A DNA stretch of 60,982 nt. Origin: a virus. Below the pieces are notes generated by a model, which saw only the letters and a list, made by a program, of their open reading frames with translations, did not search any database and was not told the origin of the DNA. Both the position numbers and the translations under genes were made by a program. Where the stretch lies: IMG/VR virus record IMGVR_UViG_3300027749_003742, positions 1 to 60,982 of that record, one strand, 5' to 3'. Below, one piece after another: positions 17,319-57,343 of the stretch (positions are counted from its first letter, which is position 1; each line of letters starts with the position of its first letter).

Positions 17319-17729
17319 TTAGTAATACATTTGGAACGTGAACACAGTATTTCCGTTAACTCGTTTAATAAATACGATACATTTAGGGTTAGGTAATGTG
17401 TCTGTACCGACTTTTAAAATTTCAACACCATCCTCAATTCCATCAGTGAATTTCCAAGAAACCTTTAGTGACGGGGAAATCTCATCACTTGACATTTGTC
17501 TAACAAACTCGTTGTCACACCACTCAACAGAATCCATTTTAAGACCAAGTGATGATAAACACCCCAAATATAGATTTTGTTCTGATGGAGTTAACTTAAC
17601 AAATAATTCATTAGTCATTCTACCCCCAAATCGGAAATCAGAGTCGTTAACTGTTGATACTGAAACTACTTGACCAAAACTAGATAATGTCAAGATTACT
17701 GATACTATAATTACGATTAATTTTTTCAT
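17319..17729 (-). CDS. Exported protein, 136 aa
   Basis: The first 19 residues (MKKLIVIIVSVILTLSSFG) form a Sec signal peptide with a probable cleavage site before Q-V-V-S-V. The mature domain is beta-rich with two Cys. The host-type promoter upstream groups it with the other exported proteins of this window. It may alter the host envelope. Confidence 0.7.
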   Translation of the reverse strand: MKKLIVIIVSVILTLSSFGQVVSVSTVNDSDFRFGGRMTNELFVKLTPSEQNLYLGCLSSLGLKMDSVEWCDNEFVRQMSSDEISPSLKVSWKFTDGIEDGVEILKVGTDTLPNPKCIVFIKRVNGNTVFTFQMYY

Positions 17730-17733
17730 ACAA

Positions 17734-17741
17734 CAAAGATA
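17734..17741 (-). promoter_or_regulatory. Host-type promoter element TATCTTTG
   Basis: The element lies 4 nt before the reverse-strand start at 17729. Confidence 0.65.
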
Positions 17742-17765
17742 TGAGGTTTATTTCTATTTTCCAAA

Positions 17766-17772
17766 TATTTAT
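17766..17772 (+). promoter_or_regulatory. TATTTAT box
   Basis: The box lies 18 nt before the start at 17791. Confidence 0.5.
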
Positions 17773-17790
17773 TATTAAAACTTCTAATAG

Positions 17791-18378
17791 ATGAAAAAAA
17801 TTATAAGATTATCGGAATCTGACTTATATAGAATAGTTAAAAAAGTGATTAAGGAACAGTCTGAATTTGACCCTAAAACCGCATCATATTTTGCTGCGGC
17901 AACTAACGACTTAAGTCCTAAACCCGCATTATATTTTGTTAAAGAAGGTGATAGTTATCAAGCTTGGGTTGAGATAAAGACACGTACTTCTGCCAGAAAC
18001 GCGTACTTATCAATAGGGTTATTACCAAAGGCGGAAACACTTACCGCGACAATTGACGATGGTAATAAAATAGTTTTAACTGGTCCCTCAGTTATTGCGA
18101 ATAAGATTTACGGTGAAATGTATGGTAGTACAACAGGCGTTGCGGTCGTATTCAATGGGGAGCCGTACTTGGCAAATATGATTTTATCAGGGGTTGTTCC
18201 TGACGCTGAAACCGCGATAAAAGAACAAGGTATGAAACCTGTCGAGCCAAAACCTGGTAATCAAATAACAAAAGATAAGTCTTTTTTTATTACGGTAAAA
18301 CCAAATGTTAACAGAGGTAATTATGGTAAAGGGAGTGGAATTAATTTGGTCTCAACTCACGAAGTCCAAGCGGTCTAA
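17791..18378 (+). CDS. Leader-tagged protein (RLSESDL class), 195 aa
   Basis: The protein opens with MKKIIRLSESDLYRIVKKVI followed by K-E-Q-S-E. After this, residues 25-195 form a beta-rich domain with A-Y-L-S-I-G-L-L-P and F-F-I-T-V-K-P-N. A single-domain virion decoration or internal protein is plausible. Nothing specific was recognised. Confidence 0.75.
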   Translation: MKKIIRLSESDLYRIVKKVIKEQSEFDPKTASYFAAATNDLSPKPALYFVKEGDSYQAWVEIKTRTSARNAYLSIGLLPKAETLTATIDDGNKIVLTGPSVIANKIYGEMYGSTTGVAVVFNGEPYLANMILSGVVPDAETAIKEQGMKPVEPKPGNQITKDKSFFITVKPNVNRGNYGKGSGINLVSTHEVQAV

Positions 18379-18415
18379 TCTTTCCTTTTAAATTAAAAAG
18401 AAGTATATTTTTCCA

Positions 18416-18670
18416 ATGAAACAAGAGTTTGTTGAAAAAATGTTAACGTCTTTATTTCCTAAGTCCAAATTAAAAATTGTCTCCTATACATTAATGGATA
18501 GACAACAATTGAATGAGAGTGGTGAGTGGATTAAGGATACTCCCGCAATTTTTATAGATATAACTTTTCCCGAGAATAGTGAAACTAATGAGGTTCTTAA
18601 AGACCTTTATTTAACTGATTACTTATCAAACATGACGGGGTTTGAATTTGCGGTAACTAAGGTACAATAA
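18416..18670 (+). CDS. Small unknown protein, 84 aa
   Basis: The protein begins K-Q-E-F-V-E-K-M-L-T-S-L-F, has an internal Q-L-N-E-S-G segment, and is otherwise beta-rich. An element like TATATTTT precedes the start at close range. Function is unknown. Confidence 0.65.
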   Translation: MKQEFVEKMLTSLFPKSKLKIVSYTLMDRQQLNESGEWIKDTPAIFIDITFPENSETNEVLKDLYLTDYLSNMTGFEFAVTKVQ

Positions 18671-18696
18671 CTATTGTTTAATTCTAATCTTTTTAC

Positions 18697-18704
18697 TACT
18701 TTTG
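18697..18704 (+). promoter_or_regulatory. Host-type promoter element TACTTTTG
   Basis: The element lies 16 nt before the lipoprotein start at 18721. Confidence 0.6.
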
Positions 18705-18720
18705 TGAAAACTAATATTCC

Positions 18721-19170
18721 ATGAAAAAAAGTATTCTATTTTTAATTTTATCGGTAATTCTATTTTCTTGCCAGAAAGAAGAATTAACCCCAAACAATAA
18801 TAACAATCAACCAATAGTTGTTCCTCCTTATACGGGACCGACAACGACTCCTCAAACCATTGTAGGTCAGACATGGGTAATCACTCAGTACAGAGTTGGA
18901 CAATACGGAACAATTTTACCATTAAACGATACTTTAACTTTTGATAATAATACAAATTATCATTATAATTCTTTTACCTCCACATATAGTTTCTATTCTA
19001 CGGGGTCGGTTTATAATTTAACAATGAATTATACTCCGTTTGGTAATTTAAGTGGTAACATAAACGATAATAATATTATTTTGGGGAGTATCCTTGGGAC
19101 TCGATTTGTCGATATCTCAATTGGGTCATCTAATACTACAGAATATTATTTATGGATGGAAAAATTATAA
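18721..19170 (+). CDS. Lipoprotein with lipocalin-like domain
   Basis: MKKSILFLILSVILFSCQK is a lipoprotein signal (lipobox L-F-S-C, Cys 17). An Asn/Pro-rich spacer follows. The mature domain has the G-Q-T-W-V-I-T start, W-x-repeats and alternating strands typical of small Bacteroidota lipocalin-like lipoproteins. It was probably acquired from a host and would be displayed on the cell envelope. A plausible role is blocking superinfection, but this is inferred. Confidence 0.75.
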   Translation: MKKSILFLILSVILFSCQKEELTPNNNNNQPIVVPPYTGPTTTPQTIVGQTWVITQYRVGQYGTILPLNDTLTFDNNTNYHYNSFTSTYSFYSTGSVYNLTMNYTPFGNLSGNINDNNIILGSILGTRFVDISIGSSNTTEYYLWMEKL

Positions 19171-30370: not shown

Positions 30371-32239
30371 ATGGGAAAAATAATAGGAGTAGATTTAGGA
30401 ACTACAAATTCGTGTGTTGCCGTAATGGAAGGTAACGAACCAGTTGTTATTACAAACAGTGAAGGAAAAAGAACCACGCCTTCAATTGTCGGATTTATTA
30501 ATGGTGGTGAAAGAAAAATCGGGGACCCTGCAAAAAGACAGTCGGTAACAAACCCTGATAAAACGGTTTATTCAATCAAACGATTTATGGGGTTAACATT
30601 TGACGAAAGTAAAGGTGAGGTTAATAGAGTTCCGTATAAATTAGTTAAAGGTGAGGGTAACACTCCAAGAGTATCTATCGAAGATAGAATGTATTCTCCT
30701 CAAGAAATCTCGGCAATGATTCTTCAAAAGATGAAACAAACTGCGGAAGATTACTTGGGAACTGAGGTTACTGAAGCAGTTATTACTGTTCCTGCCTATT
30801 TTAACGACGCACAACGTCAGGCAACAAAAGAAGCTGGTGAAATCGCGGGATTAAAGGTATTGAGAATTATAAATGAACCGACTGCCGCGGCATTAGCGTA
30901 TGGACTTGATAAGAAATCTAAGGACATGAAAGTAGTTGTATTTGACTGTGGAGGAGGAACCCATGATGTGTCAGTATTAGACCTTGGAGACGGAATCTTT
31001 GAAGTGTTATCGACAGATGGTGATACACATCTTGGTGGTGACGACTTTGATAACACAATTATTGATTGGTTAGTTAAGGAATTTAAAGAAGAAAACAATC
31101 TTGACCTGACTAAAGACCCGATGGCGTTACAACGTTTGAGAGAGTCGGCAGAAAAGGCTAAGATTGAGTTGTCATCAACAAGTTCAACCGAGATTAATTT
31201 ACCTTACATCATGCCTGTAGATGGTATCCCTAAACATCTAGTTAGAACTTTAACTCGTTCTAAATTTGAACAATTGGTCGACAGTTTAGTACAAAGAACA
31301 ATCGCTCCTTGTAAATCAGCATTAAAAAACGCAGGATTAAAGACGACAGACATCGATGAGATTATTTTAGTTGGTGGTACAACACGTATTCCTGCTATCC
31401 ATGACGCGGTTAAAAAGTTCTTTGGGAAAGAGCCTTCAAAAGGGGTTAACCCTGATGAGGTAGTTGCTCTTGGTGCGGCAATCCAAGGTGGTGTATTAGC
31501 TGGAGACGTAAAAGATGTGTTGTTATTAGACGTAACACCATTATCTTTGGGTATTGAAACAATGGGTGGAGTATTCACAAAACTAATCGAATCAAATACT
31601 ACAATTCCAACTAAGAAGTCACAGGTGTTCTCAACGGCAGTTGATAATCAACCGTCAGTTGAAATCCACGTACTTCAGGGAGAAAGAACTATGGTTAGAG
31701 ATAACCGTACTATCGGTAGATTTCATTTAGATGGTTTACCACCTGCAATGAGAGGTACCCCTCAAGTTGAAGTCACTTTTGATATTGACGCTAACGGTAT
31801 TATAAACGTTTCGGCGATGGATAAGGCGACAAACAAACAACAATCAATTAGAATTGAATCTTCTTCAGGATTATCTAAAGAGGAGATTGAAAAGATGAAA
31901 CAGGAGGCCGAAATGAATGCTGAGTCTGATAAAAAGGCAAAAGAAGATGCTGACGCTATCAATATTGCAGACAGTACGATTTTTAACGTTGAGAAATCGT
32001 TAACTGATTTGGAAGGTAAAATATCCGAAGAACAAAAGTCTGAGATAACGTCAACTCTTGAAAAATTAAAAGAGGCTCACAGTAAGAAGGACGTAGAATT
32101 ATCTAAATCATTAGTTGATGAGGTAAATCTGAAATTCCAAAAGATTTCACAGGATTTGTATGACCAAGTTAACGACCAAACAGGTGATATGGAGTTTAAT
32201 GGTTCCGATGTTGAATTTGAAGAGGTGAATAATAAGTAA
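30371..32239 (+). CDS. dnaK: Hsp70 chaperone DnaK, full length
   Basis: This 622-residue protein has all Hsp70 landmarks: [11 protein letters not shown] near the N-terminus, [13 protein letters not shown] near residue 170, the phosphate-2 loop [11 protein letters not shown], and [10 protein letters not shown]. The substrate-binding domain has [14 protein letters not shown], with a helical lid and a V-E-F-E-E-V ending. The phosphate-2 loop usually reads DLGGGTFD; here it has Cys and His substitutions. It should fold proteins with ATP, needing DnaJ and GrpE from the host. It is monocistronic, with a terminator downstream. Complete dnaK genes are uncommon in phages. Confidence 0.97.
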
Positions 32240-33391: not shown

Positions 33392-33901
33392 TTACTTTTC
33401 TTTAACTAACGTTAAACATCTCTTCAAATATTCTTTAGCTCTTGGTGTCGGACCAGAATGTTTTAATACTTTCTCAATATCTTTAACCAACTCTTCCCCG
33501 TGTTCATTTTCTTTATATAACTCGATTACCTTATCCATAGCCTTAACACACTCATTATTTGTCTCATCATGGTAATTCTTATTTCTAAAACCATTGATGT
33601 GATTCATTAGGTTATAAGACAAATGCTCCCCACCGTCATTAACGTCATGGAGTCTTAATGTTTTTAACATATCTAAAGTATCTACCATACCGTTAATTCC
33701 ACCATCTCTTTTATAAAGACTTGAGGTGTAGTTTTTAAAGTTCTCAGAAGGACCAACAATGTGGTCTAATGGGATTACATTCTCAGGAACACATCTTTGT
33801 TTTTGTTCACCGTCCTTTTTAGGTTCGATGCGTTGTTCTTCTAAAATATGTTGTCTGATTATTTTACGAAGTTTTTGTTCGTCTATAGTAATTTTTTTCA
33901 T
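33392..33901 (-). CDS. Leader-tagged protein (ITIDEQKLRKII), 169 aa
   Basis: The leader MKKITIDEQKLRKIIRQHI combines features of the I-T-E-x-Q and RIVKKVI classes and continues L-E-E-Q-R-I-E-P. The remainder is helical, with G-H-N-type His residues and D-I-E-K-V-L-K-H-S-G near the C-terminus. No domain was recognised. Confidence 0.75.
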   Translation of the reverse strand: MKKITIDEQKLRKIIRQHILEEQRIEPKKDGEQKQRCVPENVIPLDHIVGPSENFKNYTSSLYKRDGGINGMVDTLDMLKTLRLHDVNDGGEHLSYNLMNHINGFRNKNYHDETNNECVKAMDKVIELYKENEHGEELVKDIEKVLKHSGPTPRAKEYLKRCLTLVKEK

Positions 33902-33925: not shown

Positions 33926-34022
33926 TTCATTTATTCTGAATTATTCGTCAGAGTCGATATTTATAAAAGGATATACCCAATTACGGGTAAATCAATAAAA
34001 AATAAAACTAATTACATGGGAG

Positions 34023-34241
34023 ATGGGGATAGTGATAAGAACATGGAGGAAGATATTTTTGGGGAACCTCTCTGTAAAGTTTCTCATGATAGCGATGTTT
34101 TTCAACCCTTTTGGGTTCGATGCGATACAGTACTATCTCTATACTTTGACAGGGAGTTTGTGGTACGCAAATCTAATTTTGTATTGCGTATCGGGACTAT
34201 TCTTTGGATTATCTTTTTATTTTCGAAAATTATCTAAATGA
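34023..34241 (+). CDS. Small two-helix membrane protein with FNPFGFD motif
   Basis: Two frames overlap here. I prefer the one starting at 34023 because it reads F-L-M-I-A-M-F-F-N-P-F-G-F-D-A-I and L-T-G-S-L-W-Y-A-N-L-I-L-Y, a pattern I recall from small membrane proteins of marine phages. The alternative frame from 34016 is Asp/Cys-rich without pattern. The gene ends in ATGA overlap with the PPK2 gene. Confidence 0.6.
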   Translation: MGIVIRTWRKIFLGNLSVKFLMIAMFFNPFGFDAIQYYLYTLTGSLWYANLILYCVSGLFFGLSFYFRKLSK

Positions 34242-35356
34242 AACAAATAATATCTGAAATATCGAGAATTAGTGAGATAATGGGGATTAAACCGTTAAAT
34301 CTTATTATTGAGGAAGAGGATGCAACCATAAGTGAAGTACATTTTAAACGAATAGTTGACTTATTAAAGTTCAATAAAATGTTTACAAAAACTAACGATA
34401 GTAATTTAAATAAAATATCAAAATACGCTAAATCACAAATTATTGATTTTAATTTACTTGAGCGGGGATTGATTAAGACTTTAAAATTAAAAGGAAACAA
34501 ATCAAAAAATGTTTCAGAATACTTTAAATTAGTGTTAAAGTCATTAAAACAACGTCAATCTAATATACACACATCTACTCCAGAAAAAGATGATTTACCA
34601 AGTTTAGAGATTCAGGAGCCATCTATTATACCTAAAAAAGTTTATAGAGAAGAACTTTATTATTTACAGGTTGAATTATTAAAACTACAAGAATGGTTAG
34701 TAAAAACAGGTAAAACAGTTATTATTGTATTTGAAGGTAGGGACTCCGCAGGTAAAGGGTCCACTATCAAAAAGTTTATTGAATTCATGAATCCACGTTT
34801 ATATAACGTTATCGCCCTTGGGATACCAACACCAAAGGAAAGAAAAAATTGGTGGGACAGATATAGAAACCTAATCCAAAAAGGGAAAATTAACCTATTT
34901 GATAGAAGTTGGTATAATAGAGGGTTAGTTGAGCCAGTAATGGGATATGGGAACACTGACGAATATGAAGATTTTATGGGTAATGTTGAAGGATTTGAAC
35001 AAGACTTAGTTAAAGATGGGGATTACCTGTTTAAATTATGGTTTTCAATCGATAAAGAAACCCAAGCAAAAAGATTTGATATGAGACAAAAATCCAAACT
35101 TAAGTATTGGAAATATTCCCCAAACGATTCTAAAATGCAAGACCTTTGGGACAGGTTCACAGAATTTAAAGATAAATTATTTGACAAAACATCAACTGTT
35201 AATCACCCTTGGGTTATTGTCGATTCTAATGATAAACGAATTTCAGGTTTAAACGCCATAAGATATGTGTTACAAAACATACCTTATGACAGAAAAAACG
35301 AAGATGTTTTAAATAAAAACTATCCTGAAGCGTTAACGGTGTTAAGACCCGAATAG
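34238..35356 (+). CDS. ppk2: PPK2-type polyphosphate kinase with leader-tagged N-terminal extension
   Basis: From about residue 135 on this is a PPK2 domain: Walker A in F-E-G-R-D-S-A-G-K-G-S (165-175), G-I-P-T-P-K-E-R near 195, the lid F-D-R-S-W-Y-N-R-G (221-229) and Y-W-K-Y-S-P-N-D near 287-294. PPK2 enzymes use polyphosphate to phosphorylate nucleotides, or run the reverse reaction. The first 130 residues are extra; they begin MKQIISEISRISEIMG, with I-S-E and L-I-I-E-E-E sites like the other leaders. It is 372 residues, against about 230-300 for one-domain PPK2. It overlaps the upstream membrane gene by 4 nt. Confidence 0.9.
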   Translation: MKQIISEISRISEIMGIKPLNLIIEEEDATISEVHFKRIVDLLKFNKMFTKTNDSNLNKISKYAKSQIIDFNLLERGLIKTLKLKGNKSKNVSEYFKLVLKSLKQRQSNIHTSTPEKDDLPSLEIQEPSIIPKKVYREELYYLQVELLKLQEWLVKTGKTVIIVFEGRDSAGKGSTIKKFIEFMNPRLYNVIALGIPTPKERKNWWDRYRNLIQKGKINLFDRSWYNRGLVEPVMGYGNTDEYEDFMGNVEGFEQDLVKDGDYLFKLWFSIDKETQAKRFDMRQKSKLKYWKYSPNDSKMQDLWDRFTEFKDKLFDKTSTVNHPWVIVDSNDKRISGLNAIRYVLQNIPYDRKNEDVLNKNYPEALTVLRPE

Positions 35357-35569: not shown

Positions 35570-36023
35570 TTATAATTTTATTTCAAAACGATTTTTCATT
35601 ATTTCAATTTTATCTTCAGGAACCCCGTGTTGATTTACCCCACCATGACGATTTTCAACAATCACCGTAAAAACAGTATAATCATATTGTTTCGCTAATT
35701 TGAAGTAGATTTCCATTTCCCACTCTTGTGTAAACGTATTAGATACCGCGATTTCTCGATAAAATTGGTCATTTACTAATGAATCCTTCATATAAGTTTC
35801 CACCCTATCTTGACAGAATTTATGAGCATTTTTGATTTTAGAAACGTCAAATTTATATTCACCCGTTTCTTTATCAATAAAATATTTGTCCGCCTCACAA
35901 ACTAAAAAGTCTTCACCAACTAATTTTTCTGCAAAAGTTGATTTTCCCGAACCTAGCTCAAGGCACCCCCCTAACAAGATACAAAATCTTTTCGGGGGGT
36001 GCTGTATTTTTTTTATTATCCAT
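35570..36023 (-). pseudogene. P-loop kinase (PNK/NEDD4BP2-like) with +1 frameshift in the Walker A region
   Basis: From the ATG at 36023 the frame reads M-D-N-K-K-N-T-A-P-P-E-K-I-L-Y-L-V-R-G-V-P and then hits TGA at 35960-35958. The +1 frame continues as E-L-G-S-G-K-S-T-F-A-E-K-L to the stop at 35570, with A-D-K-Y-F, N-A-H-K-F-C, V-S-N-T-F-T and N-Q-H-G-V-P blocks of AAA kinases related to polynucleotide kinase. A normal protein would read R-G-x-P-G-S-G-K-S-T. Seven extra bases (TGAGCTA) separate CCT from GGT. The slip site CCT-TGA resembles that of release factor 2, so programmed frameshifting, a real mutation or an assembly error are all possible. Confidence 0.65.
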
Positions 36024-36082
36024 ATATTTATTATTAGAGGTATTCTTGATACCGAATACAAATATAGTAAAAAAATATTATT

Positions 36083-48602: not shown

Positions 48603-48679
48603 GCACCCGTAGCTCAGCTGAAAAGAGCAACGGTTTTCTAAACCGTAGGTCCCAGGTTTGAATCCTGGCGGGTGTACCA
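48603..48679 (+). tRNA. tRNA-Arg: tRNA-Arg(UCU)
   Basis: A full cloverleaf is present: acceptor GCACCCG/CGGGTGT, anticodon loop TTTCTAA, T-arm with TTTGAAT. CCA is encoded. It reads AGA, a common codon in this AT-rich genome. The reverse HNH gene ends on the next base. Confidence 0.95.
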
Positions 48680-49198
48680 TCATAACCCACCGTGTATTTC
48701 TCGGTGACAATTAGAACATACTAACATACATTTGTCTAACTCATTTTTAATTACTTTGTCAAATTTATATTGTCTGACATGTGCAATTGTAAAATCCTTT
48801 TCATTGGGGATTAAATGATGAAAGTCTAAGGCTCCTATGTACTTATTGTATCCACATATTTGACAACAACCTCCTTTATAATCAACCATTTCCTGTTTTA
48901 ATTTTCTATTTCTTTCAGTAACTTGAATGGTTGTACATTTTTTACAATAAACTGACCCTCCTATTTTTCCTCTTCTATTATAAAATTCATCAATACTACA
49001 ATTATTATTACATTTTGGACATAGTCTGTGGTCACCATATTCTTTAATTCCTTGAGATGAAAAATTTTTTGTTTTAAAAGGTATTTTGTATTTTTTTACC
49101 CAATATCTAATAGTACTTAACGATTTACCCGTTTCTTTACTAATTTGATTTAATGATTTACCATCATTTATTAATTTTTCTAAAAATTCTTTTTTCAT
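48680..49198 (-). CDS. HNH homing endonuclease with HTH start
   Basis: Residues 1-40 form a helix-turn-helix (S-L-N-Q-I-S-K-E-T-G-K-S-L-S-T-I-R-Y-W). Two CxxC knuckles follow (C-P-K-C, C-K-K-C). The HNH core is C-C-Q-I-C-G-Y, L-D-F-H-H-L-I-P-N, C-M-L-V-C-S-N-C-H-R-E-I-H. The stop codon abuts the last base of tRNA-Arg and a late-type box precedes the start, as is usual for selfish endonucleases parked beside tRNA genes. Confidence 0.85.
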   Translation of the reverse strand: MKKEFLEKLINDGKSLNQISKETGKSLSTIRYWVKKYKIPFKTKNFSSQGIKEYGDHRLCPKCNNNCSIDEFYNRRGKIGGSVYCKKCTTIQVTERNRKLKQEMVDYKGGCCQICGYNKYIGALDFHHLIPNEKDFTIAHVRQYKFDKVIKNELDKCMLVCSNCHREIHGGL

Positions 49199-49218
49199 AG
49201 TTAAATGGATTATATTAT

Positions 49219-49225
49219 ATAAATA
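49219..49225 (-). promoter_or_regulatory. TATTTAT box (reverse strand)
   Basis: The box lies 20 nt before the start at 49198. Confidence 0.5.
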
Positions 49226-49277
49226 TCCAATTAAACCATAAAATTGACATCAATAAAAAAGTGTTTATATTTAGTGT

Positions 49278-49529
49278 ATGGGAAGTCAAGATAATATGTT
49301 AGAACAAGAACATAATGAGTTCGTTAATAGCGAACTATTTTGTCAAATGATTAAGGAGAAAATCGAAAATTCTCATTATCATAAATATGATGGGATTGCC
49401 CCCGAAGGGTTTATCTTAATACCTGAACAAACTTTAGAACGATTAAAAGATTTCGACTATTGGAAGGAGTGGATACACGACTCAACAACTTTTAATAAAG
49501 ATATGAAAGAGGATACAAAAAATATGTGA
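49278..49529 (+). CDS. Small unknown protein, 83 aa
   Basis: This helical acidic protein contains P-E-G-F-I-L-I-P-E-Q-T-L-E-R-L-K-D-F. The start is preceded by a variant box (TATATTTA). It is not recognised. Confidence 0.65.
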   Translation: MGSQDNMLEQEHNEFVNSELFCQMIKEKIENSHYHKYDGIAPEGFILIPEQTLERLKDFDYWKEWIHDSTTFNKDMKEDTKNM

Positions 49530-49557
49530 TTTTTCTTGGATAGTCAAATCTTTTTTG

Positions 49558-49565
49558 TATCTTTG
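49558..49565 (+). promoter_or_regulatory. Host-type promoter element TATCTTTG
   Basis: The element lies 4 nt before the start at 49570. Confidence 0.65.
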
Positions 49566-49569
49566 TTCT

Positions 49570-50160
49570 ATGAAAAATATATTAGGATTTCTTTTTATTT
49601 CTTTTGGTGTTATGGTAGCGTTGAAAGAAGAATACCATTGTAAAAATTACAGTGAGGTCTTTTCAAAAATGACGAATAGTGGGAGTTCTTCTGAATCAAC
49701 TCCTTCGGTTGAGGACCAAGTTGTTTATATCTCAGGTTTGGGGGATTTTGACCAATCCGATTTAGAAACGGCCTCAAAGGCTATTACTGAAGTATACGGT
49801 CTTAAATGTGAAATAATTAATCCAACAAGTACCTCAGATATTTTATATAATGAGAAGGGTAAGTTAGACGCAAAAATATGTCATCAACAATTAAATCCGA
49901 AAAATAAAACGGTTTATGTGACAAATGAATATGTAATGTCTGATGGGATAATTGTTTGTGGGGCAACAACATTTTATGGTAATTTTATTATTGTTAGTGA
50001 TAATTTTAATAATCACGTAAGAAATACTACACTTCATGAAATGGCACACACTTTTGGTCTTGGTCATTGTGATAATCAATGTATATTAGGTCATATTAAA
50101 CTTGGCGAACCTAACGGTAAATTTTGTAACGACTGTAAAATAAAACTTGGATTAAAATGA
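49570..50160 (+). CDS. Archaemetzincin-like zinc metallopeptidase, membrane-anchored or exported
   Basis: I chose the ATG at 49570 because it starts a hydrophobic segment (I-L-G-F-L-F-I-S-F-G-V-M-V) and lies just after a promoter. Zinc ligands appear in H-E-M-A-H-T-F-G-L-G-H (H156, H160, H166). Four cysteines follow, C167, C171 and C186-x2-C189, the arrangement of archaemetzincins, which bind a second zinc there. The family cleaves small peptides. The protein has 196 residues, and the next gene overlaps it by 4 nt. Confidence 0.8.
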   Translation: MKNILGFLFISFGVMVALKEEYHCKNYSEVFSKMTNSGSSSESTPSVEDQVVYISGLGDFDQSDLETASKAITEVYGLKCEIINPTSTSDILYNEKGKLDAKICHQQLNPKNKTVYVTNEYVMSDGIIVCGATTFYGNFIIVSDNFNNHVRNTTLHEMAHTFGLGHCDNQCILGHIKLGEPNGKFCNDCKIKLGLK

Positions 50161-50432
50161 AAACTTTTGAAGATTTAGAATTTAGACCTCATCGTATGGA
50201 TGGTGTACAATCAATTATGATGTTTGATAATGGATATGGTGTTTCTGTTATTAAAACGCCACACTCTTACGGTGGAAAAAGGGGTCGATACGAATTGGCG
50301 GTATTAGACTCAAGTGAGGCAATTACATACAACACACCTGTTACTGAAGATGTATTAGGTTACCTTTCTGAAAAAGAAGTAACAAGATACATGATAGAAG
50401 TTCAAAAATTATTAACCTTTAACTTAAAATAA
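50157..50432 (+). CDS. Small unknown protein, 91 aa
   Basis: The ATGA overlap couples it to the metallopeptidase. The sequence F-D-N-G-Y-G-V-S-V-I and Y-E-L-A-V-L resembles small phage proteins of unknown role. The host-type promoter is probably shared. Confidence 0.7.
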   Translation: MKTFEDLEFRPHRMDGVQSIMMFDNGYGVSVIKTPHSYGGKRGRYELAVLDSSEAITYNTPVTEDVLGYLSEKEVTRYMIEVQKLLTFNLK

Positions 50433-50433
50433 T

Positions 50434-50508
50434 ATGCCAGATTTCACAACCGAGATTGACATTGACCCATATGAGTATGTGTCGCAGATATGCCCAGTTT
50501 GGGATTAA
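50434..50508 (+). CDS. Very short ORF, 24 aa
   Basis: MPDFTTEIDIDPYEYVSQIC is acidic and starts 1 nt after the previous stop, followed by five more residues. It may be a truncated copy of a longer phage protein. Confidence 0.35.
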   Translation: MPDFTTEIDIDPYEYVSQICPVWD

Positions 50509-50536
50509 ATAGTAGAAACTTTAAATAATAAATAAA

Positions 50537-50761
50537 ATGACAAAAAAAGCAGAAAATTCAAATGAAACACAGAACCCCAAATTGGGTATATCTGTTGTTA
50601 TAAATCGTTTTTTAGATAAAGTGTTATTGTGGTTGATTTATCGTAGATGGAGAATGTTAGGTAAGAAAATAGATGGTAAGACATTTTTATCGTCTGATTA
50701 TGCTAAAAGACGTAAATCTTATGAGAGTTTGATGTGGGAAGTTAGGAAAAATGATTTATAA
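50537..50761 (+). CDS. Small basic protein, 74 aa
   Basis: The middle of this protein is hydrophobic and aromatic (I-S-V-V-I-N-R-F-L-D-K-V-L-L-W-L-I-Y-R-R-W) and the ends are basic. This could be an amphipathic membrane-surface helix. Function is unknown. Confidence 0.6.
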   Translation: MTKKAENSNETQNPKLGISVVINRFLDKVLLWLIYRRWRMLGKKIDGKTFLSSDYAKRRKSYESLMWEVRKNDL

Positions 50762-50819
50762 CGAACAAGTATAAATATAATAATTTTATAAAAATGTTTG
50801 ACAATTGAAGAACTTTTAC

Positions 50820-50827
50820 TACTTTTG
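50820..50827 (+). promoter_or_regulatory. Host-type promoter element TACTTTTG
   Basis: The element has TTGAAG about 18 nt upstream as a possible -33 element. It heads the small unit ending at 51026. Confidence 0.6.
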
Positions 50828-50865
50828 TAATAGTTATTAGAAAACAATTGAAAAAAATAGAATCA

Positions 50866-50970
50866 ATGAGAACAAATATTAAACATATGGTCATTATCAG
50901 TAAATCGCAATTTATGAATTGCTGGTATCCGCGTGTTTCAAGTATTGGTTCGGAATTGAGTGTAAGATAA
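50866..50970 (+). CDS. Possible 34-aa ORF within a small promoter-terminator unit
   Basis: The ORF MRTNIKHMVIISKSQF continues to S-E-L-S-V-R. The internal M-V-I-I-S-K-S-Q resembles the I-L-I-K-E-S-Q leaders. The RNA also holds the hairpin GCAATT/AATTGC (50909-50923), so it may be non-coding instead. Confidence 0.35.
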   Translation: MRTNIKHMVIISKSQFMNCWYPRVSSIGSELSVR

Positions 50971-50993
50971 AAGTTAAGTATAACATATATCTA

Positions 50994-51026
50994 AACCCCG
51001 AGCCACATAAGGTTCGGGGTTTTTTG
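50994..51026 (+). terminator. Rho-independent terminator
   Basis: The stem AACCCCGA/TCGGGGTT is followed by T6, just ahead of the tRNA array. Confidence 0.95.
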
Positions 51027-51031
51027 TTTTA

Positions 51032-51049
51032 AGTTCATTGACATATTGG
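51032..51049 (+). promoter_or_regulatory. BoxA-like leader motif
   Basis: AGTTCATTGACATATTGG is nearly the same as the motif at 58048. It resembles the antitermination BoxA seen ahead of Bacteroidota rRNA operons. It precedes tRNA-Gln. Confidence 0.5.
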
Positions 51050-51062
51050 TTTAAAAGTTTAT

Positions 51063-51146
51063 TGTCCTGTAGTGTAATTGGCAACACACCTGATTTTGGC
51101 TCAGGAATCCGAAAGGTGTATTCAGGTTCGAGTCCTGACAGGACAA
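51063..51146 (+). tRNA. tRNA-Gln: tRNA-Gln(UUG) with enlarged variable region
   Basis: The acceptor is TGTCCTG/CAGGACA, the anticodon stem CCTGA/TCAGG with loop TTTTGGC, and the T-arm TCAGG/CCTGA. The variable region has about 16 nt including CC-GAAA-GG, whereas Gln tRNAs normally have 4-5. CCA is not encoded. Confidence 0.85.
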
Positions 51147-51149
51147 CAC

Positions 51150-51224
51150 ATTGCGTGGCTCATTGGAGAAGAGTTATTTCTCATAAGGATGACCAGGTGG
51201 GTTCGACTCCCATACACGCAACGA
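51150..51224 (+). tRNA. tRNA-Met: tRNA-Met(CAU)
   Basis: The anticodon loop CTCATAA sits on a U-G-rich stem TATTT/GGATG, and the T-arm is GTGGG-TTCGACT-CCCAT. Acceptor pairing is TTGCGTG/CACGCAA, with ends uncertain by 1-3 nt. It is probably the elongator, since a second, initiator-like Met tRNA lies at 58331. Confidence 0.75.
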
Positions 51225-51257
51225 CAAAAAAAAGTTTGGTAATATAAAATAAATTAC

Positions 51258-51265
51258 TAACTTTG
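51258..51265 (+). promoter_or_regulatory. Host-type promoter element TAACTTTG
   Basis: The element lies 6 nt before tRNA-Val. Confidence 0.55.
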
Positions 51266-51271
51266 TCAAAC

Positions 51272-51343
51272 AGTTCCTTAGCTCAACGGTAGAGCACTTG
51301 TCTTACATACAAGAAGTTGCGGGTTCGATTCCCTCAGGAACTA
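51272..51343 (+). tRNA. tRNA-Val: tRNA-Val(UAC)
   Basis: The acceptor is AGTTCCT/AGGAACT, the anticodon stem CTTGT/ACAAG with loop CTTACAT, and the T-loop TTCGATT. No CCA is encoded. Confidence 0.95.
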
Positions 51344-51349
51344 CAATAA

Positions 51350-51422
51350 GGACCTCAAGCTAACTTAGTAGAAGCGTTGGACTGAAAATCCAAAGGACTT
51401 GGAGCGTAACCAAGGGGGTCCA
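51350..51422 (+). tRNA. tRNA-Phe: tRNA-Phe(GAA) with non-canonical T-loop
   Basis: The acceptor is GGACCTC/GGGGTCC, and the anticodon stem TTGGA/TCCAA has loop CTGAAAA. The T-stem CTTGG/CCAAG encloses AGCGTAA instead of TTCRANY. All helices pair. Confidence 0.8.
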
Positions 51423-51446
51423 CGGAGGCCTGAAATAACAGGACAC

Positions 51447-51498
51447 CCCCACTCCCATATGGCAGTCAGTCCGTTAACCTGATGAAGTGGGGTTTTTT
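51447..51498 (+). terminator. Terminator-like hairpin after tRNA-Phe
   Basis: The stem CCCCACT/AGTGGGG encloses a 32-nt loop and is followed by T6. Being inside the array, it may act as an attenuator or processing signal. Confidence 0.6.
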
Positions 51499-51502
51499 AA
51501 AT

Positions 51503-51577
51503 GGAGTGTATAGTGTCAGTGGTTGAGCACGTTAGTTTGTGGTACTAATAGGGTGAGTTCGAATCTCACTATACTCC
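51503..51577 (+). tRNA. tRNA-His: tRNA-His(GUG)
   Basis: The acceptor is GAGTGTA/TATACTC with the His-specific extra G at position -1 opposite C73. The anticodon stem TTAGT/ACTAA has loop TTGTGGT, and the T-arm is GTGAG/CTCAC. Confidence 0.95.
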
Positions 51578-51581
51578 CAAA

Positions 51582-51662
51582 AGTCGGGACGCTACGGTCG
51601 TAAATTCTGCAGAATGAGAAGACGAAAAGCCTAAGCACGCAGATGAGCTCGCGTTGACGACT
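51582..51662 (+). ncRNA. Putative structured RNA in the tRNA array
   Basis: Nested pairing AGTCG/CGACT (51582-51586 with 51658-51662) and ACGC/GCGT (51589-51592 with 51651-51654) closes about 80 nt. Inner helices include TCGT/ACGA and ATTCT/AGAAT. It lacks a T-arm or a plausible anticodon arm, so it is not a tRNA. T4 also has small stable RNAs of unknown role in its tRNA cluster. Confidence 0.4.
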
Positions 51663-51718
51663 ATAAAATTGGATGTGGGGTTTGTTAGTAAAACAAGTTA
51701 CTTATCAATTAATGTGTA

Positions 51719-51725
51719 TATTTAT
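51719..51725 (+). promoter_or_regulatory. TATTTAT box
   Basis: The box lies 4 nt before the start at 51730 and decides that start. Confidence 0.55.
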
Positions 51726-51729
51726 TAAT

Positions 51730-52314
51730 ATGAGAAAAGAAAAATACACCAAAGAATTGTTAGAAAAACTTGTTTCAGAATCCGAAACTTTTTCTGACTT
51801 GGTTAGGAAACTAACCTTAAAAACAAAGGTTCATGGTAACATGGTCGCCTATATAAAAAAAAAGTTGATTGAATTAGGTATTAATTTTGACCATTTTAAA
51901 GGAAGGAGTTGGTCAAAAGGTAAATCAAATTCTACGGGTACTGCGTTAACTAAAGAAGAATTTAGTGAGTTTTATTTATCTAAGAACGCAAAAAAATATA
52001 CAGGTAGTAATAATATTAAAAAATACTTGTTTAAGTTTGGTTTAAAAGAGAATAAATGTGAGGTATGTGGTATTGGCGAATATTGGAATGGGTTACCAAT
52101 CTCAAATCAATTAGACCATATTGATGGGGATAATCAGAATAACGAAATAAATAATTTACGAATTTTATGCCCTAATTGTCATAGTCAAACTAAAACTTTC
52201 GCAGGTAGAAATGTAAAAACGGAAGGCGCCCGAATGGACGAGGACACCGCCTTGAAAGCGGCTGAGTGTAAAAGCTTTGGGGGTTCGATTCCCTCGTCTT
52301 CCGCAAAAAAATAA
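51730..52314 (+). CDS. HNH homing endonuclease reading through tRNA-Ser
   Basis: I chose the ATG at 51730, 4 nt after a box. The HNH core lies at about 114-160: C-E-V-C-G-I-G-E-Y-W-N-G, N-Q-L-D-H-I-D-G-D-N-Q-N-N, L-C-P-N-C-H-S-Q-T. The frame has no stop before tRNA-Ser and runs through the whole tRNA, so its last 30 or so residues are encoded by tRNA sequence, ending at 52314. The tail is low-complexity (S-I-P-S-S-S-A-K-K). Endonuclease insertion at the tRNA 5' end explains this. Confidence 0.8.
   Translation: MRKEKYTKELLEKLVSESETFSDLVRKLTLKTKVHGNMVAYIKKKLIELGINFDHFKGRSWSKGKSNSTGTALTKEEFSEFYLSKNAKKYTGSNNIKKYLFKFGLKENKCEVCGIGEYWNGLPISNQLDHIDGDNQNNEINNLRILCPNCHSQTKTFAGRNVKTEGARMDEDTALKAAECKSFGGSIPSSSAKK
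52221..52303 (+). tRNA. tRNA-Ser: tRNA-Ser(UGA)
   Basis: This is a class II tRNA: acceptor GGAAGGC/GTCTTCC, anticodon loop CTTGAAA, a long variable arm, and T-loop TTCGATT. It lies fully inside the reading frame of the HNH gene. Confidence 0.95.
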
Positions 52315-52318
52315 AATT

Positions 52319-52741
52319 ATGAAAACAAAAGAAGAGGCAAAACTTGATTTTGAAATGACTGTCAAACGTCTTAGAGAAGAACGAGAGATTAAACGAAAGG
52401 AGTATTGGAATGATTTGAAACCCTTCAATGAACCAAACGACATTCCTGAAATCCCAAGGGTGGATGAAAAAGAGTATAAAGAGTTCTACATCCCAAGATT
52501 AATTAAGGCGGGAGCAATCCCAAAGAAAGACTTAATTCACGGTCAGGTTTATATTGGGGACCACAGGAACACAGATATTGCAAGATGGAATCAGGAAACA
52601 AACAAATTTGACCACATGAGATATAAGTTTGGTTGGATGGAAGATGACTGTAATCATTTTGAAGATGACGATGGATTTGCATTATTTGTTCCGATTAAAT
52701 TAGGAACTGAAGAAGATTGGACTAACAGATTAACAAAATAA
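52319..52741 (+). CDS. Unknown charged protein, 140 aa
   Basis: I chose the ATG at 52319 just after tRNA-Ser; the longer frame would start inside the tRNA. The first third is a charged helix (K-L-D-F-E-M-T-V-K-R-L-R-E-E-R). The rest has Y-I-G-D-H-R-N-T-D-I-A-R-W and W-M-E-D-D-C-N-H-F. It is not recognised. Confidence 0.7.
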   Translation: MKTKEEAKLDFEMTVKRLREEREIKRKEYWNDLKPFNEPNDIPEIPRVDEKEYKEFYIPRLIKAGAIPKKDLIHGQVYIGDHRNTDIARWNQETNKFDHMRYKFGWMEDDCNHFEDDDGFALFVPIKLGTEEDWTNRLTK

Positions 52742-52745
52742 AAAC

Positions 52746-52952
52746 ATGACAAAAAAAATAACTCAGTCCCTTAAAGACCAACAAATTTCAGAACCTGAAA
52801 TAATCGATTTAATTAGTTCTTACCGAAAAATGGTAAAGGCAGGAATCCTAAAAGAAAAAGGGTTTGTTAAACTTTTAATTAAACTGGGAATTGACCGACC
52901 AAGTGATAACCAATTCATCCTTGATGAGAATAAGGTATATACGCTTAAGTAA
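52746..52952 (+). CDS. Small basic protein, 68 aa
   Basis: This helical protein begins T-K-K-I-T-Q-S-L-K-D-Q and follows the previous gene by 4 nt. It lies on the plus strand between tRNAs. Function is unknown. Confidence 0.6.
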   Translation: MTKKITQSLKDQQISEPEIIDLISSYRKMVKAGILKEKGFVKLLIKLGIDRPSDNQFILDENKVYTLK

Positions 52953-52957
52953 AAAAC

Positions 52958-53030
52958 AGTCTCTTGGTGTAACGGATTAGCACCTATCGTTACGGCCGAT
53001 AAAGTTTGGGTTCGAATCCCAAGGAGACTA
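52958..53030 (+). tRNA. tRNA-Arg: tRNA-Arg(ACG)
   Basis: The acceptor is AGTCTCT/GGAGACT, the anticodon stem TATCG/CGATA with loop TTACGGC, and the T-arm TTGGG/CCCAA. A34 would normally be deaminated to inosine to read CGN. Confidence 0.95.
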
Positions 53031-53070
53031 CAACATCCGATGTGTGTTCCCGAGCTAGGTCGGGATAAAT

Positions 53071-53158
53071 GGAGAATAGAGGAGGGAAATGGTGTCCCCG
53101 ATTGTTTGCTAAACAATAACCCATTAAGTTGGGCGTGGTTCGAGTCCACTGTTCTCCG
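53071..53158 (+). tRNA. tRNA-Ser: tRNA-Ser(GCU)
   Basis: This is a class II tRNA: acceptor GGAGAAT/GTTCTCC, anticodon stem ATTGT/ACAAT with loop TTGCTAA, variable arm with CCCA/TGGG, and T-loop TTCGAGT. A hairpin TCCCGA/TCGGGA lies just upstream. Confidence 0.95.
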
Positions 53159-53165
53159 CAACAAT

Positions 53166-53238
53166 GGTTCTGTAGTTCAATTGGAAGAACAAAGTCCTTC
53201 TAAGGATGGTCAAGTGGGTTCGAATCCCTCCAGAATCA
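53166..53238 (+). tRNA. tRNA-Arg: tRNA-Arg(UCU), second copy with weak anticodon stem
   Basis: The acceptor GGTTCTG/CAGAATC, D-stem GTTC/GAAC and T-arm GTGGG/CCCTC are normal. By position the anticodon loop is CTTCTAA. The anticodon stem AAGTC/GGATG pairs at only three of five positions, so isotype and function are less certain. Confidence 0.7.
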
Positions 53239-53248
53239 CTAAAATAAA

Positions 53249-53320
53249 CGGGGTGTAGTCTTGAGGAGAGACGCTTGGTTTGGGACCAAGAGGCGGCGGG
53301 TTCGACTCCCGCCACCCCGA
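53249..53320 (+). tRNA. tRNA-Pro: tRNA-Pro(UGG)
   Basis: The acceptor is CGGGGTG/CACCCCG, the anticodon stem CTTGG/CCAAG with loop TTTGGGA, and the T-arm GCGGG/CCCGC. Confidence 0.95.
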
Positions 53321-53363
53321 CAAAAAATTTAGTAAAACAGAACGATATATACCAAAAAATGGT

Positions 53364-53371
53364 TACTTTTG
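53364..53371 (+). promoter_or_regulatory. Host-type promoter element TACTTTTG
   Basis: The element lies 18 nt before tRNA-Ile(GAU). Confidence 0.5.
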
Positions 53372-53389
53372 TTCAATAAAACTAAACAT

Positions 53390-53462
53390 TGTGATGTGTC
53401 CGAGCGGCTTAGGAACTATCCTGATACGATAGTCTACGTGGGTTCGAGTCCCACCGTCACAA
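53390..53462 (+). tRNA. tRNA-Ile: tRNA-Ile(GAU)
   Basis: The acceptor is TGTGATG/CGTCACA, the anticodon stem CTATC/GATAG with loop CTGATAC, and the T-arm GTGGG/CCCAC. Confidence 0.92.
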
Positions 53463-53489
53463 CCTTGGGTCGTTTTTGTACTTTAATGA

Positions 53490-53496
53490 TATTTAT
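53490..53496 (+). promoter_or_regulatory. TATTTAT box
   Basis: The box lies 15 nt before the start at 53512. Confidence 0.5.
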
Positions 53497-53511
53497 TATT
53501 AAAGTACAATT

Positions 53512-54156
53512 ATGGCAAGAAAAGAAAAAAAATATCATTACATTTACAAGACCACAAATATTAAAAATGGAAAATATTATATCGGAATGCACAGTACTGA
53601 TAATCTTGAAGATGGTTATATGGGGTCTGGTAAAAGATTGAGACGTTCTTTGAAGAAATACGGTAAACAAAATTTTAAGTCTGAAATCTTGGAATTTTTA
53701 CCAAATAGGGTATCTTTAATCGAAAAAGAAAAAGAATTGATAAATGAGAAACTATTAAAAGATTCATTATCAATGAATATTAAAAAGGGTGGTGAAGGTG
53801 GTTTTGTTAACAACGAACATAAAATTAAATTTATTAATGAGGCGGTAAAGATGTTTAACATTAATAAGGAGAAAATGGTTGAGAGGAAAAAATGGTTGTG
53901 GGATAATGATAAAGAATGGCGTGATAATTTTAGTAAAAAACTAAGTAATAGTAAAATAGGTAATATCAGTTGGACTGGATTACATCATACTGAAGAAACA
54001 AAAAGAAAAATATCGAAAAAAAATTCAATAAATCAAAAAGGTGAAAACAATTCCCAATTTGGGACTCGTTGGGTTACAAATGGAAAAGAGAATACAAAAA
54101 TTAAAAAAGAAGAAACAATTCCTAATGGATGGAGATTGGGAAGAAAATTGATATAG
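53512..54156 (+). CDS. GIY-YIG homing endonuclease (Seg-like) with NUMOD3-type motif
   Basis: The GIY-YIG domain occupies residues about 8-95: H-Y-I-Y-K-T-T-N, K-Y-Y-I-G-M-H-S-T, G-S-G-K-R-L-R-R-S, and the catalytic Glu in L-I-E-K-E-K-E-L. C-terminal DNA-binding repeats follow (S-K-K-L-S-N-S-K-I-G, H-H-T-E-E-T-K-R-K-I-S). It lies between tRNA-Ile and a damaged tRNA-like sequence, typical of homing insertion in tRNA arrays. Confidence 0.9.
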   Translation: MARKEKKYHYIYKTTNIKNGKYYIGMHSTDNLEDGYMGSGKRLRRSLKKYGKQNFKSEILEFLPNRVSLIEKEKELINEKLLKDSLSMNIKKGGEGGFVNNEHKIKFINEAVKMFNINKEKMVERKKWLWDNDKEWRDNFSKKLSNSKIGNISWTGLHHTEETKRKISKKNSINQKGENNSQFGTRWVTNGKENTKIKKEETIPNGWRLGRKLI

Positions 54157-54230
54157 AATGTAAGTCTATGGTGAAACGGTTTATCGTCTATGTATACAAA
54201 ACCAAGGTTTCAGCTTCAAATCCTGATTAC
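54157..54230 (+). pseudogene. Degenerate tRNA-like sequence
   Basis: A T-arm TCAGC-TTCAAAT-CCTGA is clear (54210-54226). Only four acceptor pairs (GTAA/TTAC) remain, and no 5-bp anticodon stem with a 7-nt loop can be drawn. It directly follows the GIY-YIG stop, so insertion may have removed its 5' part. Its 3' end touches tRNA-Lys. Confidence 0.5.
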
Positions 54231-54301
54231 TCCTTCATAGCTTACTGGTAAAGCTTACGACTTTTAATCGTAAGACCCAAGTTCGATTCTTGGTGGGGGA
54301 A
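54231..54301 (+). tRNA. tRNA-Lys: tRNA-Lys(UUU)
   Basis: The acceptor is TCCTTCA/TGGGGGA, the anticodon stem TACGA/TCGTA with loop CTTTTAA, and the T-arm CCAAG/CTTGG. Confidence 0.93.
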
Positions 54302-54305
54302 CAAT

Positions 54306-54377
54306 GGTCACATGGCCGAGTGGCTTAGGTGATGGTCTGCAAAACCATCCACGTAGGTTCGAATCCTACTGTGACCT
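54306..54377 (+). tRNA. tRNA-Cys: tRNA-Cys(GCA)
   Basis: The acceptor is GGTCACA/TGTGACC with discriminator T (U73, Cys-specific), the anticodon stem ATGGT/ACCAT with loop CTGCAAA, and the T-arm GTAGG/CCTAC. Confidence 0.95.
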
Positions 54378-54388
54378 CAAACAAATAC

Positions 54389-54461
54389 GCGTCTTTGGTG
54401 TAACGGCTTAGCATAAGTGACTCCAAATCTCTTGGTCAGGGTTCGAATCCCTGGGGACGCG
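54389..54461 (+). tRNA. tRNA-Trp: tRNA-Trp(CCA)
   Basis: The acceptor is GCGTCTT/GGGACGC with discriminator G, the anticodon loop CTCCAAA on stem AGTGA/TCTCT, and the T-arm CAGGG/CCCTG. Confidence 0.92.
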
Positions 54462-54469
54462 CAATTATT

Positions 54470-54541
54470 GGCTTGGTAGCTCAGAGGAAGAGCATTCGTT
54501 TGTTAAGCGAGAGGTCGGGATATTTTAATTCCTCCAATCCG
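54470..54541 (+). tRNA. tRNA-Asn: tRNA-Asn(GUU) with degenerate T-loop
   Basis: The acceptor GGCTTGG/CCAATCC has one mismatch. The D-stem is GCTC/GAGC, and the anticodon stem TTCGT/GCGAG has loop TTGTTAA. The T-stem GGGAT/TTCCT encloses ATTTTAA in place of TTCRANY. Confidence 0.8.
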
Positions 54542-54583
54542 TAATTATTTTAAGAAAAATGTTGTGGGTATTAAAATTAGTTG

Positions 54584-54591
54584 TATATTTG
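54584..54591 (+). promoter_or_regulatory. Host-type promoter element TATATTTG
   Basis: The element lies 27 nt before the start at 54619. Confidence 0.55.
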
Positions 54592-54618
54592 TAAAACAAA
54601 CAAACTAAAACATATACC

Positions 54619-55065: not shown

Positions 55066-55071
55066 AAAAAT

Positions 55072-55159
55072 AGTCAGGTGGCGGAATTGGTTAGACGTAA
55101 CCAATAGGAAAGCAATCAGCAACAACTGGTTTACACAGGTTCGAATCCTGTCCTGACTA
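55072..55159 (+). tRNA. Atypical tRNA-like gene (Leu-like D-arm), anticodon unclear
   Basis: The acceptor AGTCAGG/CCTGACT and T-arm ACAGG-TTCGAAT-CCTGT are perfect, and the start TGGCGGAATTGG is Leu-like. The middle instead forms an 8-bp hairpin ATTGGTTA/TAACCAAT and a second hairpin AATCAG/CTGGTT with loop CAACAA. No standard 7-nt anticodon loop can be drawn. The length (88 nt) is normal for class II. Confidence 0.6.
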
Positions 55160-55164
55160 CAAGT

Positions 55165-55228
55165 AGCCCGAAGTACAAGGGACCGAAGATGGAGATTACA
55201 GACATAGGTTGAAATAAAAAATACCTTC
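55165..55228 (+). ncRNA. Putative structured spacer RNA between two tRNA-like genes
   Basis: CCCGAAG pairs with CTTCGGG about 55 nt downstream. ATTAC and ACATAG segments inside can pair with CTATGT and GTAAT just beyond. No ORF or tRNA fits. The stretch ends at the terminator-like hairpin 55283-55319. Confidence 0.35.
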
Positions 55229-55449: not shown

Positions 55450-55452
55450 CAA

Positions 55453-55948: not shown

Positions 55949-57343
55949 ATGAATTTTAAACAAATATTAATTGCTGAGTCCGAGAAGAAACGTATCAGGG
56001 AAATGTATGGAATATTAACAGAACAATATTTCAAAGCTCCTAATGGTGGTACGGGTCAAGTAGTTAATAAATATCCTGCGGGTTATTATTCGTTAAGTGG
56101 TACGGATAAATCAGGTACCGCATATGACAACACAACCAATTTACAAAAAATTATCGATAACGCCAAAGAGTTTTTAACGGCTAATAAAGGTTATATCCCA
56201 AGAATTGTTATTAATGCGGGTGAATCTATTAACCCTAATTACGATACTGAAGGTGGTACGGGAGTTAAAAGTTCAGGATGGTTGTCTCAAAAAAGAAAAG
56301 ACAAAATTGAGGTATATATTAAACAACAATTAAAAGATTTAGTCGATAAAAAACTTATCTCAAAGTATCCCGAGGTTATTTTATATTTTGATGAGGCGAA
56401 AACATTAACAATACCATCAGGTGGGTGGGACGATTATCGAACATGGAAAAAATCTACCGACCAAGAAAAAAAGGTAAACCCTAAAAACGCCGAATATATT
56501 AAGTTAAAAACTGGCTACGATACCGACCAATTTACTAAAATAAATTTTAAAATTGTTCCTGATTTTGGGGATAATCAATGTTCATTTAATGTTAAAATTG
56601 GGGTACACTATGATGATTTAAGTATTGGTCATAGATGTAACACTGCAAGGTTTGAAATCTTGGCAAACGGTGTACAATTAACGACAGGTGGTGGAACAAC
56701 ATGTGGGTCAGGATTACGATATGCCGATATGAATAATGGTGGTGGTAGTTTAGATTGTAAATCAGGCGATATTGGTGGACAAAGAATGAATTATTTCCAA
56801 TTAAATAATAAGTCCGTGGTTGATAAAATTATAGCAGCGTCTCCCGATAAAAACACTATAAAAATAACTATGAGATGTACGTCAACAGGATTTAACGACC
56901 CTACTGGTAGATGTCATCAAGATGTTCCACATGTTACGGTTCACAATACTGATGGTAAAGTAACTGTTGACACATACCCTAGAATAAACGATGACGCCCT
57001 AATAACTATTGATAAATGTGGTAATAAAATTTCAGGTGGAGGGGGAGTACCAACAAAAAGTAAAGACGCAGCATCGGGAACGACAACGACACCTAATACC
57101 CCAACGACAACAACTACAGGTCAGAAAATAAATTTTGCCGCACCTGCAACAGGAACATTAACTTCAGACCAAGCAATCCTTAACAAACTAAGTAGTGGTG
57201 AGGTTAAGAAAAATACCGATAATACTTATTCAGTTTTGAAAACGTTTGCGTACAACGGTATTACTTATAAAGTCGGAGATACTATTGTAAAAATATTACC
57301 AAAGGGGAGTACTGTGACAACGACAACGACAACAATTAAATAA
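55949..57343 (+). CDS. Leader-tagged Cys-containing virion-like protein, 464 aa
   Basis: The first residues, MNFKQILIAESEKKRIREMY followed by G-I-L-T-E-Q, combine the I-x-E-S-E-K-K-R-I class with a second L-T-E site. An OmpA-like stretch follows (G-W-L-S-Q-K-R-K-D-K-I-E-V-Y-I). The middle is beta-rich with several Cys and G-G-G loops. The C-terminus has Thr-rich linkers (T-T-T-T-P-N-T-P-T-T-T-T-T) around a small domain with Y-N-G-I-T-Y-K-V-G-D-T. A peptidoglycan- or surface-binding virion protein is plausible. Confidence 0.7.
   Translation: MNFKQILIAESEKKRIREMYGILTEQYFKAPNGGTGQVVNKYPAGYYSLSGTDKSGTAYDNTTNLQKIIDNAKEFLTANKGYIPRIVINAGESINPNYDTEGGTGVKSSGWLSQKRKDKIEVYIKQQLKDLVDKKLISKYPEVILYFDEAKTLTIPSGGWDDYRTWKKSTDQEKKVNPKNAEYIKLKTGYDTDQFTKINFKIVPDFGDNQCSFNVKIGVHYDDLSIGHRCNTARFEILANGVQLTTGGGTTCGSGLRYADMNNGGGSLDCKSGDIGGQRMNYFQLNNKSVVDKIIAASPDKNTIKITMRCTSTGFNDPTGRCHQDVPHVTVHNTDGKVTVDTYPRINDDALITIDKCGNKISGGGGVPTKSKDAASGTTTTPNTPTTTTTGQKINFAAPATGTLTSDQAILNKLSSGEVKKNTDNTYSVLKTFAYNGITYKVGDTIVKILPKGSTVTTTTTTIK

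Follow-up and report, generated by a model that had tools for sequence, protein, structure and literature searches.

A PPK2 polyphosphate kinase with a leader-like N-terminus as probable head cargo of a large T4-like phage

Phage proteins known to be delivered from the head mostly attack host defences or modify the transcription machinery. In T4, the internal proteins IPI-IPIII and Alt are unrelated head cargo that share a short N-terminal propeptide ending in L/I-x-E, which is removed by a gp21-type protease, gp21 cleaving after L/I-x-E (PMC9026906). Moreover, the capsid targeting sequences of T4 suffice to package foreign proteins, which are then delivered (PMC9026906). Carriage of ppk2 by lytic viruses has also been described, with both gene presence and expression given in two reports (PMC13188868, PMC9636769). 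Here we describe a PPK2 encoded in a 60,982-nucleotide stretch of viral DNA (IMG/VR record IMGVR_UViG_3300027749_003742), the whole of which is referred to as the window. The protein and its relatives resemble the T4 cargo in their N-termini, and the window enzyme is probably a capsid-targeted, protease-processed cargo precursor, injected to make NTPs early from host polyphosphate (polyP).

The PPK2 core and its N-terminal extension

The positions of all features are given in Table 1. Residues 133-354 matched the PPK2 family (PF03976) with 233.9 bits (E 2.3e-69, gathering score 22.3), and GRDSAGKG of Walker A, DRSWYN of Walker B and the main lid residues were invariant in 46/46 phage homologues; the catalytic motifs are intact, as the earlier note on this DNA had stated. 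Asn227 of RSWYN was likewise invariant in all 46, and an Asn after RSxY is the marker of PPK2 class I (PMC11641546). The nearest solved structures are PPK2s, the best by fold belonging to class I, and the fold comparison matched FtPPK2 of Francisella tularensis with a TM of 0.94 (46% identity, 239 aligned columns). The core fold, Walker A and B, the lid and the Asn after RSxY are common to the phage enzyme, FtPPK2 and S. meliloti SMc02148. In contrast to these cellular class I enzymes, a leader and a novel four-helix domain have been added in the phage proteins. The window enzyme is a class I PPK2 with an intact core, for which polyP-dependent phosphorylation of NDPs is predicted. A packaged PPK2 could act structurally, run in reverse or remove host polyP stores rather than supply NTP, given that PPK2 is reversible, that polyP synthesis is the main activity of some class I enzymes (PMC8776046) and that the four-helix domain is without an assigned role. 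We hold such uses to be quite improbable, since the invariance of the catalytic residues in the 46 phage homologues argues for catalysis and Asn227, as the marker of class I, speaks for phosphorylation of NDPs.

In the phylogenetic tree, the phage enzymes (the window group and those of huge phages) fell on one side and 40 cellular rows on the other (SH-aLRT 99). Contamination by host DNA was ruled out by this separate phage branch, by the phage contigs on which the genes lie and by their conserved phage neighbours.

Table 1. Positions of the PPK2 gene, its parts and leader-bearing or adjacent genes in the window; a slash marks a candidate cut.
Feature	Position	Strand	Basis
Short ORF of 72 aa that runs into the start of PPK2, perhaps in one operon with it	34023..34241	+	ORF list, neighbourhood comparison
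PPK2 ORF, 372 aa and stop, ATG start	34238..35356	+	ORF list, Pfam
Leader, residues 1-25, MKQIISEISRISEIMGIKPLNLIIE	34238..34312	+	homologue comparison, AlphaFold
Four-helix domain, residues 29-108, phage-specific	34322..34561	+	AlphaFold; fold and sequence searches
Flexible linker, residues 109-132, conserved E127-P-S129	34562..34633	+	conservation, AlphaFold
PPK2 class I catalytic core, residues 133-372	34634..35353	+	Pfam, structure comparison
Walker A EGRDSAGKGS, residues 166-175	34733..34762	+	conservation
Walker B DRSWYNR, residues 222-228, with class I marker Asn227	34901..34921	+	conservation and class rule (PMC11641546)
Lid region RFDMRQKSKLKYWKYSPNDSKMQDLWD, residues 279-305	35072..35152	+	Pfam, conservation
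Protein of 464 aa, unrelated to PPK2 but sharing its leader type, SEKKRIREMYGILTE/Q	55949..57343	+	PSSM match
Neighbouring gene, leader of a different type, DEQKLRKIIRQHILE/E	33392..33901	-	sequence

The N-terminus of the window protein reads MKQIISEISRISEIMG, and some 130 residues precede the core, whereas for most of the best-matching cellular class I PPK2s the alignment does not begin until around residue 130 of the query. Scans of IMG/VR located the enzyme at ~110 loci, the majority of them 62-81% identical to the window protein. With truncated or split copies (L047, L049, L050) left out, the full extension was found in 68/69 distinct complete homologues among these relatives, the single exception (L026) probably having a start codon annotated too far downstream. 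AlphaFold, supplied with 46 phage homologues (rows from viral contigs only), gave a low-confidence short helix at residues 2-14 and disorder at 16-28 and again at ~111-131, followed by the PPK2 core; modelled alone, the four-helix domain reached a mean pLDDT of 90. Because 68/69 relatives keep it and AlphaFold is confident at residues 29-108, the extension is not a product of chance. The addition of ~130 N-terminal residues claimed by the earlier note was thus borne out, the core starting at about residue 133, and its counter-case, homologues without the extension, was not what the alignment of phage PPK2s returned. However, the AlphaFold segmentation divides what had been called a 130-residue tag into three parts, namely leader, new domain and linker: the first ~25 residues are indeed leader-like, but the rest is the four-helix domain and a disordered linker. 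Searches of Pfam, PHROGs, a PDB sequence profile, PDB folds and BFVD gave no significant relative of this domain, and no confident instance of it turned up elsewhere among the proteins that these phages encode.

A T4 late-promoter-like TATAAATA lies 35-55 bp ahead of many PPK2 homologues and ~320 bp ahead of the PPK2 of the window, where it occurs at 33918 (+) and ~33957-33965 (-), one per strand between divergent genes. As a sign of late expression the motif was dropped, there being no enrichment before leader genes as a class (2/54 versus 41/762). A complete phage-encoded DnaK-like chaperone (30371-32239) lies near the PPK2 gene, likewise in two relatives (L188, L207). At 35570-36061 (-) a P-loop kinase gene is broken across two reading frames at Walker A; its counterpart in a relative is intact (L210, 6244-6639), and the window copy is either an assembly error or a pseudogene. 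The window also holds an array of 21 predicted tRNA genes (48603-60542).

Leaders shared, exchanged and fused

We scanned 1229 ORFs from the phage group with a PSSM built on 19 PPK2 leader cores, that of the window not among them. Eight non-PPK2 matches of at least 14 bits were obtained (two further matches, being PPK2 copies, were left out) and all eight start within the first 21 positions, with 0.8 expected if uniform, an expectation that ignores N-terminal composition bias; five of the eight come from one gene island. Among the proteins bearing the PPK2-type leader are ParB-like proteins, a CPT-like kinase, a glucosaminidase and, in the window, the 464-aa protein at 55949. The leader-like character of the PPK2 start, as proposed earlier, is upheld in that further proteins encoded by these phages begin in a similar way. 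In the window, the DnaK, ThyA, IMPDH-like and FKBP genes are without such leaders. A second leader type, LTE.DL..(L/I)(V/I)...(L/I).E, was found at the N-terminus of 12 proteins from a single 321 kb contig, where no occurrence is expected.

The island mentioned above (L074, 1732-17198, on the G001 contig) consists of genes whose products carry leaders of four or more types (LTESDL..., MNLNENISR..MG, MKYIITESQ and NRSFSKIRHIQEAN..LEKRLLKEQ) and is probably a virion cargo island. Leader-like N-termini also occur in a cultured relative, Flavobacterium phage immuto (NC_055915.1, L244), at 11675-12139, 17631-18931 and 3806-4354 (MKKQILSEQFRRMQKLAGIITESQ; repeated FDLKKFLVENKLT); gp076, gp077, gp083 and gp092 of this phage bear leaders.

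The leader is exchanged between lineages. Huge phages of 634-735 kb (LR745206, LR756502, LR756501) encode the same body, a helical domain plus PPK2, with a leader of the type [FY]..F[IL]NE instead. This motif was present on 13/139 proteins of the LR756501 stretches (0.9 expected), on 6/183 in LR756502 (2.5 expected) and on 5/106 in LR745206 (0.7 expected), and was at chance level in the window group. These leaders may resemble that of the T4 internal proteins. A subgroup whose PPK2 is 75-77% identical to that of the window carries yet another leader, MRNLNKHLINEE. A protein with the body NYMFFSNL... (L069 272-742, L085 8576-9043, L090 13825-14295, L056 20961-21428) starts with LTE.DL in phages of the window group and with an FDSFNE leader in LR756502, and is apparently a second body with lineage-specific leaders.

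In one subgroup, PPK2 is followed by PN(I/V)NE/Q and then by a cell-wall enzyme, either phage lysozyme (PF00959) or a hydrolase of the SleB type (PF07486), so that each precursor holds several effector domains; the window protein has one catalytic domain. At the matching locus of L282 and L283, PPK2 and lysozyme are two ORFs and the lysozyme has a leader of its own, ending IILKE/Q. At that of three further contigs (L251-L253), the leader MRNLLTEVSKMKNMMGL is joined directly to KPNINE/Q and the hydrolase, the PPK2 body being absent, and no PPK2 was found elsewhere on these fragments. The persistence of leader and cut site while the enzyme between them varies is the strongest evidence for a cargo tag and processing sites.

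These loci bear on whether the gene is an ordinary auxiliary metabolic gene (AMG), whose PPK2 would be made in the infected cell to boost NTPs and whose extension would serve oligomerisation or regulation with no packaging signal. Such a role would agree with the listing of phage ppk2 genes as AMGs in published reports (PMC13188868, PMC9636769), with the further nucleotide genes of the window (ThyA and IMPDH-like) and with a four-helix domain that, as modelled, could serve oligomerisation. It is nevertheless unlikely, leaving unexplained the leader on unrelated proteins, the exchange of leaders between lineages, the cell-wall hydrolase fusions linked by NE/Q and the retention of the leader where the PPK2 body is lost.

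The prohead protease motif and the proposed route of the enzyme

The leader of the window PPK2 has a candidate cut after E25 or E26 (I-I-E/E or I-E-E/E). The motif [ILVM]xE occurs at residues 10-32 in 59/69 homologues, and 9 more have shorter leaders ending [IL]xE, compared with 25/80 cellular PPK2s and a background of 31-34%, the motif being short and so common that about a third of random 23-mers contain it. A T4 gp21-type protease (Peptidase_S77, PF03420) scored above the cut-off in 6/12 contig fragments of relatives and was also matched by the PHROG head maturation protease; in the LR phages S77 matched weakly (20-24 bits versus a curated cut-off of 27). Both protease and capsid genes were seen in relatives only, the window being a fragment of 61 kb. 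The capsid protein of the window's phage group reads HLINE60/ASS, at a position matching the 65-residue propeptide of T4 gp23 (PMC9026906).

It is hard to reconcile these sites with a leader that targets a membrane, a compartment like the phage nucleus, or the tail or baseplate in place of the head interior. The modelled N-terminal helix is short, as such a leader might be, and the hydrolase partners could fit a tail or periplasmic role, but the leaders end in the motif of a head protease that relatives encode and the capsid protein bears the same motif at the expected end of its propeptide. We therefore regard targeting elsewhere as very unlikely.

Taken together, the leader-like start and the fusions in related phages, where similar cut sites join PPK2 to enzymes that cleave the cell wall, make head loading and injection with the DNA probable. 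The earlier note had raised delivery with the DNA, and leader sharing, leader exchange, the protease motif and the fusions and deletions all point that way. Cleavage, packaging, ejection, activity and benefit are what we infer for a PPK2 handled as head cargo, as follows. The ~25-residue leader, like a T4 capsid targeting sequence, would recruit PPK2 into the assembling prohead, where the phage's gp21-type protease would remove it after I/L-x-E. The mature enzyme, comprising the four-helix domain and PPK2 core, would remain in the head and leave with the DNA. Once injected, it would turn NDPs (GDP or ADP) into NTPs with host polyP before any phage protein is made.

Whether this extends to T4-like and huge phages at large seems to us evenly balanced: such widespread phages would inject a polyP-driven, NTP-regenerating enzyme as one member of a large set of interchangeable cargo, among it PPK2-lysozyme polyproteins that the prohead protease would cut, and host polyP would fuel early infection ahead of phage gene expression. 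With a delivered enzyme of energy metabolism, the virion would itself supply what is needed to make NTPs from host polyP. Moreover, with the leader types found here, the proteins that T4-like and huge phages inject could be predicted from their sequences alone.

Comparison with known systems

No report linking polyphosphate kinase with huge or jumbo phages or with virion packaging was found in the literature covered, which lay mostly outside subscription journals. The leader-tagged, domain-extended and hydrolase-fused forms of PPK2 appear undescribed in that literature. Phage ppk2 itself is already known; what appears to be new is the packaging tag, the four-helix domain and the cargo polyproteins. 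In contrast to the case here, the accessible parts of the reports on viral ppk2 as an AMG do not mention a packaging leader (PMC13188868, PMC9636769).

The phage PPK2 set resembles the polyvalent proteins, or P1 DdrB-type cargo, which are multidomain, are thought to be packaged and are in some cases processed before packaging (PMC5512222). ParB-like domains occur both in the polyvalent proteins (PMC5512222) and in the leader proteins described here. However, polyphosphate is unmentioned in the paper on polyvalent proteins (PMC5512222), and the processing motif here is that of the prohead protease. Compared with the T4 internal proteins, cleavage is here predicted from sequence, the leaders are longer (~17-25 residues versus 10 for IPIII), several leader types occur per phage and the cargo is a metabolic enzyme.
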